Shown piece after piece: positions 6,866-41,065 of a stretch of 64,000 nt of DNA (position 1 is the stretch's first letter; each line of letters begins with the position of its first letter). The notes under the pieces were generated by a model that was not told the DNA's origin, made no database searches, and worked only from the letters and a program-made list of their open reading frames with translations. Source of the DNA: Halobacterium wangiae. GTDB lineage: Archaea; Halobacteriota; Halobacteria; Halobacteriales; Halobacteriaceae. The stretch is taken from NCBI RefSeq assembly GCF_021249345.1, contig NZ_CP089588.1, positions 992,001 through 1,056,000 on the forward strand. The letters are read 5' to 3'. The translations under genes and the position numbers were made by a program.

Positions 6866-7522
6866 ATGAGTACGCCGCCACCCGAGCAGACGGCCGCGTC
6901 CGTCGTCGTCGTGGACTACGGCCTCGGGAACCTCCGCAGCGTCACGCGCGGGCTGGAGCGCGCGAACGCCGACGTCTCCGTCGTCGACGACCCGGCCGCC
7001 CTCGACGACGCGGACGGCATCGTCCTGCCGGGCGTCGGCGCGTTCGGCGACGGGATGGAGAACGCCGGCCCGTTCCGGGACGCGCTCGTCGACGCCGCCG
7101 CGGGCGGCCGCCCGGTGTTCGGCATCTGTCTCGGGATGCAGATGCTGCTGACCGAGAGCGAGGAGGCCGAGCGCGCGGGACAGGGCGACGCTCGCGGCCT
7201 CGACCTGATTCCGGGGCGCAACGTCCGCTTCAAGGGCGACGTGAAGGTTCCCCACATGGGCTGGAACGACCTGGACGTCGTTCGCGACCACCCGCTGGTC
7301 GAGGGCGTCGACGGCGAGTACGCCTACTTCGTCCACTCCTACTACGCCGAACTGGACAGCGACGACCACGCTGTCACGGAGACGGAGTACGGTACGCGGT
7401 TCCCCTCCATCGTTGCCAACGACGAGGGCAACGTCTTCGGCACGCAGTTCCACCCCGAGAAGTCCGGCGAGACCGGACTCCGGATCCTCCGGAACTTCGT
7501 GGACATCTGCGCCGAGCAGTAA
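6866..7522 (+). CDS. hisH: Imidazole glycerol phosphate synthase, glutaminase subunit HisH
   Basis: A 218-aa class-I glutamine amidotransferase that supplies ammonia to HisF in histidine biosynthesis. It shows VVDYGLGNLRS (about 15-25), the oxyanion region GVGAFGDGM, nucleophile C88 in FGICLGMQMLL, and the His-Glu pair in GTQFHPEKSG near the C-terminus. No other his gene is nearby, consistent with scattered his genes in haloarchaea. It ends at 7522, facing the structured repeat at 7568-7740. Confidence 0.95.
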   Translation: MSTPPPEQTAASVVVVDYGLGNLRSVTRGLERANADVSVVDDPAALDDADGIVLPGVGAFGDGMENAGPFRDALVDAAAGGRPVFGICLGMQMLLTESEEAERAGQGDARGLDLIPGRNVRFKGDVKVPHMGWNDLDVVRDHPLVEGVDGEYAYFVHSYYAELDSDDHAVTETEYGTRFPSIVANDEGNVFGTQFHPEKSGETGLRILRNFVDICAEQ

Positions 7523-7567: not shown

Positions 7568-7740
7568 AGCATCCGCGAGCGAGCAGCTCGAAGAGCCCGA
7601 GCGAAGCGGTTCCCCCTGCGAGCGAACAGCGGCCGACGAGCGACTAACGCGAGCGTAGCGAGCGGCAGGAGCGAGGAGTGCTTTTCCCCAAGTTTTTGCC
7701 GAGTGGGGCGCGCGCAGCGCGCCCCACGCAGAGCAAAAAG
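7568..7740. repeat. Composite nested-hairpin repeat, copy A (between convergent genes)
   Basis: A GC-rich element between hisH and the convergent SWIM gene. Its right part is a nested palindrome: outer arms TTTTTGC (7693-7699) and GCAAAAA (7733-7739) enclose an 11-bp perfect stem, GTGGGGCGCGC at 7703-7713 and its complement at 7717-7727, with loop GCA. Its left end, AGCATCCGCGAGCGAGC then GCTC-GAA-GAGC, aligns with the left end of the element at 40270-40434. The T-run against the A-run suits termination on both strands. Homology of the two copies is my reading by eye. Confidence 0.6.
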
Positions 7741-7747
7741 TGGGATT

Positions 7748-8086
7748 TTAGAGGAAATCCCGGACTTCGCTGTAGAACATGTCGTGGTGGTCGACCTCCT
7801 CGACGCCTTCGGCGACGTCGACGGCGAGAGCGTGCCAGCAGAACTCGTCGGCCGCGAGGTTGTACTGGCTGTCGCGACAGGTGCAGCCGCCGTCCTCGAT
7901 GATGTACTCGTCTTCGTGGCCGACGACGACGGTGAAGTCGTTGTACTGTTTGACGCGGCCCTCGCTGGCGGCTTCGATGGCTCGCTGGCCGCGGTCTCCG
8001 TGTTCGGCGAGGAGACGCTCGGTGATGGGGGCGGTGAGTTCGCCTTCGGCGGCGAGTGACGCCCGCCAGTCGTCGACCTCGGGCAC
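7748..8086 (-). CDS. SWIM zinc-finger domain protein
   Basis: A 112-aa protein starting with GTG at 8086. Residues about 61-85 (EDGGCTCRDSQYNLAADEFC, then WHA) give the CxC...CxH spacing of a SWIM zinc finger, a domain used for DNA or protein binding. The N-terminal half has no recognisable catalytic domain. Stand-alone SWIM proteins are common in haloarchaea and mostly unassigned. It is divergent from the aceA leader and ends 8 nt from repeat copy A. Confidence 0.75.
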   Translation of the reverse strand: MPEVDDWRASLAAEGELTAPITERLLAEHGDRGQRAIEAASEGRVKQYNDFTVVVGHEDEYIIEDGGCTCRDSQYNLAADEFCWHALAVDVAEGVEEVDHHDMFYSEVRDFL

Positions 8087-19934: not shown

Positions 19935-20016
19935 CGCCGGGACAGGGATTTGAACCCTGAACCCCGTAAGGGGACACGCTTTCCAGGCGTGCGCTTTGCC
20001 ATTCGGCCATCCCGGC
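19935..20016 (-). tRNA. tRNA-Ser (anticodon GGA)
   Basis: Read on the minus strand, GCCGGGA (5' acceptor arm) pairs with TCCCGGC, with discriminator G at 19935. The anticodon stem CACGC/GCGTG holds loop CTGGAAA, anticodon GGA at 19982-19984. A long variable arm with stem CCCC..GGGG and the T-arm loop GTTCAAATC are present, as needed for class-II tRNA-Ser. No CCA is encoded and I see no intron. It decodes UCC/UCU. Confidence 0.93.
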
Positions 20017-39671: not shown

Positions 39672-39780
39672 TGGCAGAGACGGCGCGCCGGTCCAGTAAA
39701 AGGTGTCCGGTCAGCGGCGCCCGCCTGGGTCGGAGTCGTACCCCAAATTGGTTTGGCGGACGCCGACGAACCGACCGTCC

Positions 39781-40260
39781 GTGCAGGTCCGGGAGGCTAC
39801 ACCGGCGGACGCCGAAGCCGTCGCCCGCGTCGCCGACGCGGCGTGGCACGACGCCCACGCCGGCATCGTCGGCGAAGACGCAGTCGAGGCGTTCCTCGCG
39901 GAGTACTACGACCCGGACGCCCTCCGCGAACGATACCGCGACGCGGAGAGCGTGACGTTCGTCGCCGAGGACACCGAACGAGTCGTCGGCTACGCGAGCG
40001 GCGTGCCCGCAGACGACGGCTACACGCTCGGGTCACTGTACGTCCACCCCGACCGGCAGGGAGCGGGCATCGGCAGTCGACTGCTCGCCCGTGTCGAGGA
40101 CGCCGCCCGCCAGGCAGACTACGACGCCGTGGACCTCGTGGTGATGGCCGGGAACGACGACTCCATCGGCTTCTACGAGTCGAAGGGGTACGAGCGCGTG
40201 GACGACCACTACGACGAGCTGCTCGACGTCGACGGCTACGTGTACGAGAAACCGGTCTAG
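39781..40260 (+). CDS. GNAT family N-acetyltransferase
   Basis: A 159-aa GNAT protein from GTG 39781 (VQVREATPADAEAVARVADA). Acetyl-CoA motif: GSLYVHPDRQGAGIGSRLLA (about 83-102), then ARQADYDAVDLVVMAGNDDS and GFYESKGYERVDDHY. The substrate is unknown. An in-frame ATG at 39703 would add 26 residues without conservation and overlap the divergent pyrE promoter. It converges on carS across repeat copy B. Confidence 0.8.
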   Translation: MQVREATPADAEAVARVADAAWHDAHAGIVGEDAVEAFLAEYYDPDALRERYRDAESVTFVAEDTERVVGYASGVPADDGYTLGSLYVHPDRQGAGIGSRLLARVEDAARQADYDAVDLVVMAGNDDSIGFYESKGYERVDDHYDELLDVDGYVYEKPV

Positions 40261-40269
40261 CGCGCGGGA

Positions 40270-40434
40270 AGCATCCGGCGACCGAGCGGGTCGAAGACCC
40301 CGGAAGGTCGCCGGTTCACCGCGCCGCAGGCGCGGGCGCCGAGGACCCCCGGAGTGGGGTCCGACGGCGCTTTTGGGCGAGCTTTTACCGAGCGAGGCGG
40401 CCGAAGGCCGCCGAGCGCAGCGTAAAAGCTCGCT
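40270..40434. repeat. Composite nested-hairpin repeat, copy B (between convergent genes)
   Basis: At least four palindromes in 165 nt between the GNAT gene and carS. (1) CCGGCGACC (40275-40283)/GGTCGCCGG (40306-40314) enclosing GGGTC-GAA-GACCC. (2) CCGCGCC-GCA-GGCGCGG (40319-40335). (3) GCGCCG/CGGCGC (40336-40341, 40365-40370) enclosing GGACCCC/GGGGTCC, then TTTT. (4) GCGAGCTTTTAC (40377-40388)/GTAAAAGCTCGC (40422-40433) enclosing GGCGGCC-GAA-GGCCGCC. Left and right ends align with copy A at 7568-7740. Probably a two-way terminator. Confidence 0.65.
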
Positions 40435-40979
40435 CACCAGGGCTCGTCTTTGAGCCCCAACTGGTACGCGCCGACGTTGGTGCCGACGTGGAGGACGGGC
40501 GTGAGGACGAGCACGGCGACGACCACCTCGAGGGTGAACGTGTCGCCGAACCAGGCGGGGGCGGCGAGTGCGGTGAGCACGAGCGCGACGACGACGAAGT
40601 CGAGCTGGTCGACGAGCGGGAAGGCGGCGCCGCGTTCGCGGCCGGTGCGCCGCTTGAGGAACGACGCGAGGATGTCGCCGAGCATCGCGCCGGCCGGGAG
40701 CGCGACCGTCGCGGCGAGCGGGAACGCCGGGAGTGGGACGCCGAGTGCTTCGCTCGCGGCGGGTTCGAGGGTGTTCAGCGCGGCGGTGAGCGCGACGCCG
40801 GCAAGCGTCCCGACGAACGTGCCCCGCCACGTCTTTCCGTCGCCGAGGACGCGGCGACCGTTCCACGTGCGGCCGCCGTCGATGGGGCGGCCGCCGCCCG
40901 CGAGCACCGCGACGTTGTTCGGGACGTAGGCGGGGAGCATCGCCCAGAACGCGACGGCGACGGTGGCTGCGAGATCCAT
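40434..40979 (-). CDS. carS: CDP-archaeol synthase CarS
   Basis: A 181-aa membrane enzyme that makes CDP-archaeol from CTP and digeranylgeranylglyceryl phosphate, the branch point of archaeal phospholipid synthesis. It has about five helices and the family motifs [20 protein letters not shown] (about 14-33), [20 protein letters not shown] (about 34-53) and [15 protein letters not shown] (about 95-109). ATG 40979 ([11 protein letters not shown]) is chosen over one 27 nt upstream. It ends next to hairpin 4 of repeat copy B. Confidence 0.93.
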
Positions 40980-41065
40980 GCTCGCCGGTGCACGTGGCGG
41001 CCGCAAAAACCCGTGGGTTTCCGGGACACGGGTCGTTTAAGGGAGGGCGGCCCACAGGGACACGT

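Follow-up and report, generated by a model that had tools for sequence, protein, structure and literature searches.

Modular repeats such as BOX and ERIC are known from bacteria as composite hairpin elements with conserved ends and a variable middle; compared with the element studied here by description only, neither is, to our knowledge, fixed 3-10 nt after stop codons. In Haloferax volcanii, T-stretches are the intergenic termination motif, and reporter assays gave termination of 95% of transcripts for a T5C tract and of 59% for a hairpin alone (PMC7237163). Our element resembles these archaeal U-tract terminators in that a T-run follows closely on the end of the anchored gene, on that gene's sense strand, in a GC-rich genome. 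However, ordinary archaeal T-stretch sites are bare or sometimes accompanied by a hairpin, whereas here the T-run is an arm of a conserved four-module palindromic cassette and is present on both strands. Bacterial REP/BIME and REPIN sequences are likewise many-copy intergenic palindromes that occur in inverted pairs and have proposed terminator roles (PMC3733652, PMC2817692), but the cassette is ~200 bp long, has four modules, is anchored to stop codons, does not conserve its stem sequences, and has a copy number unrelated to Y1 transposase genes. With regard to the REP-type tag (GTAG/CGTC), AGCGTAGC was counted at parsed junctions and occurs in only 14 of 118. The PATEs of Haloquadratum and other IS605-derived elements are also haloarchaeal and non-coding with near-terminal palindromes, but they show strain-specific insertions and related IS605 termini (PMC3119063), whereas the cassettes occupy vertically conserved sites with no whole-copy duplication seen. 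Together, the cassettes are close in kind to T-stretch terminators and palindromic repeats and match no family tested, and no haloarchaeal repeat or palindrome of this kind was found described in the open-access literature searched. Their novelty lies in being anchored to stop codons and inherited at fixed addresses, and at the same time having their stems rapidly replaced.

The DNA stretch analysed (the window, 64 kb, 68% GC, G000:C1:992001-1056000, from a genome consisting of a single 3.11-Mb contig) contains two copies, A and B, which are members of one large cassette family across salt-loving archaea. The shared layout is AGCAT - P1 - (G/A)TTCAC - P2 - GCCGACGA - P3 - GAGGAGTGCTTTT - P4, where P4 is TTTT(T)-CCGA-[GC stem]-GCAG-AAAA(A). 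As the preliminary description had noted, both copies can be read directly to start with AGCATCC, to carry GAA-loop hairpins and GCTTTT, and to end in a T-arm, a GC-rich stem and an A-arm. The GCTTTT, at 7680 in A and 40369 in B, is near-invariant among 107 aligned copies.

Copy A occupies 7568..7744 on the plus strand, from AGCAT to GCAAAAAGTGGG, between hisH and the stop of an opposite-strand gene, and its covariance-model match (7670-7748) scores 86.9 bits. From sequence and alignment, its P1 (7573..7609) consists of an outer stem CCGC/GCGG, GA-rich internal loops and an inner GCTC-GAA-GAGC, the GAA-loop hairpin being read directly at 7586-7596. It is followed by the P2 region, which pairs weakly in this copy (7614..7632; sequence and alignment), and then, as placed by alignment, by the conserved linker GCCGACGA (7632..7639), by P3 GCGACTAACGCGAGCGTAGCGAGCGGCAGGAGCGA (7640..7674), a module near-identical in locus L004, and by the conserved GGAGTGCTTTT (7675..7685), the first T-run for rightward transcription. 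P4 (7693..7739), TTTTTGC-CGA-(GTGGGGCGCGC GCA GCGCGCCCCAC)-GCAGA-GCAAAAA, is a palindrome with T-runs on both strands; like the other modules it is given on the plus strand. The upstream neighbour (6866..7522, plus strand) is a hisH-like glutamine amidotransferase gene (Pfam GATase), and the anchor gene (7748..8086, minus strand), whose TAA stop (7748-7750) lies 8 nt from the A-run, encodes a protein of 112 aa with no assigned Pfam family.

Copy B (40270..40433, plus strand; covariance-model match 40359-40437, 57.8 bits) has, by sequence and alignment, a P1 of CCGGCGACC/GGTCGCCGG with an inner GGGTC-GAA-GACCC (40275..40314; GAA-loop hairpin read directly at 40288-40300) and a P2 of CCGCGCC-GCA-GGCGCGG (40319..40335). 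Its P3, GCGCCG[GGACCCC...GGGGTCC]CGGCGC (40336..40370), is supported by sequence and fold, and its P4 (40377..40433) has the T-run at 40383-40386 and the A-run at 40424-40427, all on the plus strand. A plus-strand GNAT acetyltransferase gene (39703..40260) is its upstream neighbour, and its anchor is the minus-strand gene for CDP-archaeol synthase (CarS; 40434..41006), with the stop at 40434-40436, 6 nt from the A-run.

The proposal that A and B belong to one diverged family holds across the genome. Of the two shared ends, AGCATCC by itself is near chance (8 matches vs 3.6 expected, not significant), whereas the P4 arrangement, as the pattern TTTTNCCGAGN{15,45}CGCAGNGNAAAA, gives 11 matches in the 3.11-Mb genome and 0 in the reversed control, and all 10 alignable pattern copies have the whole layout. 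Furthermore, a covariance model of the 3' module of the element (R1) finds 27 copies in the same genome at E<1e-3, and 13-47 copies per genome in 11 of the 12 other species of the genus. R1 matches are spread patchily over 131 of 194 sampled genomes of the class and 51 of 65 genera, and a genome of family f8 contains the complete P1-P4 layout (L058). No R1 match was found on the named haloarchaeal hisH loci outside the family, and none of the 4227 Rfam models matched the element at gathering or relaxed thresholds, the only hits being tRNA and one chance miRNA match. A second subtype, GGGACGTTTTTAGCGTAGCTTTTTGCGAG...GAGTAAAAAGGTACTA, is present in the window's genome (L033-L039). The sole Rfam match in the window is a minus-strand tRNA gene at 19935-20016. 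Species G007 (99% complete) has zero R1 matches, even at E<5; since its nusA-rpsL gap (L353) contains apparent decayed element remnants (AAAGCACTCC; CGAGCGCAGGGCAAAAGGTCGGG), the family has probably been lost there.

The element was first taken to sit in gaps between convergent genes. Convergent stops do flank both copies (plus 7522 and minus 7748 for A; plus 40260 and minus 40434 for B), but the constant feature of the site across the family is an opposite-strand stop codon or tRNA 3' end at P4, not a convergent gap. Nine genomes contributed 135 copies, of which 120 have an opposite-strand coding stop 3-10 nt (mode 6) past the P4 A-run and 4 more adjoin tRNA 3' ends; random positions have such a stop in 14 of 3000 cases (0.5%). 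In the window's genome alone the spacing is 4-9 nt in 25 of 28 copies. R1 has a few columns past the A-run and may lean towards stop-codon flanks; in the flank-unbiased set of 11 copies, where the pattern ends at AAAA, 9 are followed by a coding stop and 1 by a tRNA. Constraint is looser at the P1 side, where 18 of the 28 copies have an upstream same-strand gene end. Anchors supported by Pfam include the genes for AdoMet synthetase, a KH/NusA-like protein, EF-1 GEF, CarS (copy B), PCNA, PAC2 and FtsZ, and we take further anchors, by eye only, to be look-alikes of EF-2, LonB, DnaJ, Cdc6, GGPP synthase and PEP synthase. The nusA-rpsL gap contains a head-to-head pair of elements, whole or partly degenerate, in most genomes of the genus, the pair in the window's genome being L014/L019 (G000:C1:1691400-1691800); in the outgroups G026 and G035 this gap is 49 bp long and without element. 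At L014/L019 the rpsL start comes after a promoter-like box, CTTAAGTA. At two loci, L059 (G016:C1:1616434) and L236 (G010:C1:1714678), a direct-repeat, promoter-like AAAAGGTCGAAGTGTACGCCCGGAACACTA flanks the element instead of a stop codon.

A second gene-end sequence, repeat X, was observed alongside the family. It consists of a stop codon, then GGCGNACAGGCGGC ... GCTCCCGC ... TCACGCGCCGGGTTGGTCCCGGCTTCGTACTTGAACGTTCG, and terminates in a TATA-like TACTTGAA / TTCAAGTA. About 18-20 copies (L150-L167) are present in the window's genome, for example at G000:C1:857367, 1414127, 1449164, 2360279 and 3031347, and none in the window; in at least 7 cases repeat X lies directly upstream of a P1-P4 element.

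The sites are old and the stems young. By anchor-gene similarity (orthologs grouped at a 75% identity cut, among the copies listed in the genus search), 107 of 135 copies are at shared gene ends, in 35 groups. The elements themselves are 66.7% identical between orthologous sites, 64.1% between non-orthologous sites and 63.8% within a genome, a weak difference (p=0.04), and the anchor genes of the pairs under comparison have 87% identity. Gene conversion that homogenises the copies within a genome was rejected, same-genome copies being 63.8% identical vs 64.1% between genomes. At the hisH locus, the same anchor carries an element in 10 of 11 readable genomes of the genus, 2 of them degenerate (G001 and G006), and it does so irrespective of which gene, hisH or a GNAT gene, lies upstream. 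In several species the GNAT gene beside hisH is deleted or shortened (L173, L175, L177 and L179, in G004, G002, G010 and G012), and the element past it remains at the opposite-strand gene end.

Most stem modules are unique and some are common to several copies, but no pair of copies was seen to have two of the modules P1-P4 in common as exact matches. Recent whole-copy transposition is thus not seen, and transposition of whole copies was rejected on the strength of this mosaicism. It bears also on the suggestion, made in the preliminary description, of a small mobile element settled at 3' ends. Such an element, non-autonomous and MITE-, PATE- or REP-like, would have inserted as single-stranded DNA beside stop codons or T-runs and settled since. 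Its copies are dispersed and patchy among genera, with P1 and P4 as near-terminal palindromes, as in the Haloquadratum PATEs (PMC3119063), and with GNA triloops, which are extraordinarily stable in hairpins of single-stranded DNA (PMC4686876). Furthermore, several copies carry hairpin modules inside the loops of P1, P2, P3 or P4, and elements occur as head-to-head pairs. Nevertheless, most sites are common to several species, and near-identical copies at non-orthologous sites were not found. A Y1/IS200-type transposase is absent from six of the 13 genomes of the genus (G003, G005, G006, G008, G009 and G012, with 13-38 copies) and present in the element-free G007; an IS200/IS605 origin was rejected, as carrier status does not track Y1_Tnp. 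Viral contigs contain no exact copy of the conserved P4 core, and a consensus-like element sequence has no match in phages and four weak places in haloarchaeal plasmids. Recent mobility of the MITE, REP or IS605 type is therefore disfavoured by the vertically conserved sites and the lack of a pair sharing two stem modules, and we regard a settled mobile element as an improbable origin.

Two further observations concern the modules. GCGCGAGGCGGCGAAGCCGCCTCGGAATGCGC and TCTCGTGAGCGAAGCGAACGAGAG turn up again in other stems of other copies, as would be expected if one hairpin could insert into the loop of another (loci with recurrent modules are L284, L286, L288 and L292 in G008, L265 and L275 in G012, and L291). 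An extra double-hairpin on the P4 loop side, found in L032 of the window's genome (G000:C1:2215315) and in the nusA-rpsL gaps of G005 (L350) and G009 (L348), is alike across three genomes and two different sites.

The stems covary strongly, with a score of 0.393 vs 0.105 for shuffled alignments (0 of 500 shuffles reach 0.393) and 299 double-change cells vs 99 in shuffles, and the covariation collapses when the partners are slid. The compensatory change first noticed between A and B is thus a property of the family, but the selected RNA that it was held to imply is not supported. Covariation alone is no proof of selected RNA, and it is the symmetry of G.T and A.C mismatches that tells DNA palindromes or two-strand hairpins from a one-strand RNA. 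Selection on a single RNA strand is expected to favour G.U over A.C. Among the 1567 pairs of 242 distinct stems, 1540 are Watson-Crick, 15 G.T and 12 A.C, in a stem walk that stops at any other mismatch and handles these two alike. In tRNA stems of the same genome, called by ARAGORN as canonical pairs only, so that A.C is zero by construction, G.U makes up 38 of 667 pairs (5.7%; p about 3e-10 vs the element stems). Since G.T and A.C are equally rare, the stems do not bear the mark of pairing within a single RNA strand; the symmetry fits a DNA-level palindrome or hairpins needed on both strands, two cases that it does not separate. Further marks of the DNA level are the excess of triloops, the exact hairpin inversions between copies and the fully palindromic P4 at the CarS gene of G001, all described below.

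A structured RNA on the plus strand of the element, in which selection would act on P1-P4 as RNA (a small RNA, or an element that stabilises a 3'-UTR), would account for the covariation, for the strand specificity of the GA-rich (GA/GA) internal loops and the conserved unpaired linkers, and for the TATA-like TACTTGAA of repeat X upstream of five copies in the window's genome. It would account poorly for the mismatch counts and for the apical loops, where triloops (231 hairpins) outnumber tetraloops (25) and GNA loops (130) are accompanied by their inverted complement TNC (47). In addition, the upstream plus-strand gene is missing in about a third of the copies in the window's genome, and Rfam holds no match. 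We therefore consider an RNA of this kind rather unlikely. A kink-turn at the CCGA/GCAGN loop was also rejected, since the standard motif accommodates neither the additional C nor the frequent N=C.

The mismatch symmetry would also be expected if template switching kept quasi-palindromes at gene ends perfect as a mutational by-product, with little selected function beyond the T-runs. Indeed, six exact hairpin inversions were found between copies, the P4 at the CarS gene of G001 is fully palindromic, its CCGA side having become exactly complementary to the GCAG side, and G017 (L297) has the opposite conversion. However, near-invariant unpaired motifs persist in 107 copies, the four modules keep a fixed order across genera, and the spacing to the stop codon is tight, and we hold a pure by-product to be very unlikely.

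The best reading of the element, and one of the roles suggested in the preliminary description, is that it is probably a U-tract terminator cassette that works in both directions and is tied to certain genes at their 3' end. The main argument is the scarcity of T-runs at gene ends together with the analogy to the Haloferax volcanii reporter: among 67 gene ends of the window, called by codon usage, TTTT lies within 10 nt of the stop at 2, both element-bearing, and 60 have no TTTT within 100 nt. The tight anchoring to stops, the core-gene anchors and the inherited sites support such a terminator, and a hairpin needed on both strands would predict the symmetric depletion of G.T and A.C. On the anchored-gene side, RNA polymerase would meet a U4-5 tract 3-10 nt past the stop or mature tRNA end, and then the strong P4 palindrome; from the other side it would cross P1-P3 and then two U-tracts, GUGCUUUU and the one in the 5' arm of P4. 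As a palindrome whose arms carry T and A respectively, P4 could supply either strand with a U-tract and a hairpin from the same stretch of DNA, and may thus insulate a housekeeping gene against antisense transcription and read-through. Conservation falls on the linkers and internal loops (AGCAT, TTCAC, GCCGACGA, GAGGAGTGCTTTT and CCGA/GCAG), and the stem sequences would be free provided that pairing holds. The family, its anatomy, its anchoring, the conservation of its sites, the turnover of its stems and the mismatch symmetry are observed, whereas we infer both termination itself and the mechanism of stem rewriting. At the DNA level this rewriting may be fast and proceed by correction templated on the hairpin, by inversion of hairpins, and by the exchange or insertion of whole hairpin modules.

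Against a two-way terminator, the P1-P3 arms (about 120 bp) exceed what a U-tract terminator needs, and 10 of the 28 copies in the window's genome lack an upstream same-strand gene end, so that a two-way need is not evident there. The family is not essential, given the element-free 49-bp nusA-rpsL gaps of G026 and G035 and the loss in G007. A dedicated factor that rewrites or swaps the stems of class-wide DNA hairpin cassettes, whose gene-end addresses are inherited, is an unlikely but conceivable alternative; loss of this factor would explain why all that is left of the family in G007 is decayed remnants.

If the terminator reading is true, many haloarchaea have a common, previously uncatalogued cassette at the ends of core genes, from which haloarchaeal genetics could draw two-way terminators ready for use. 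Furthermore, the family poses a puzzle, in that the address of an element is kept for the age of the genus and its stems are replaced faster than the neighbouring genes diverge.
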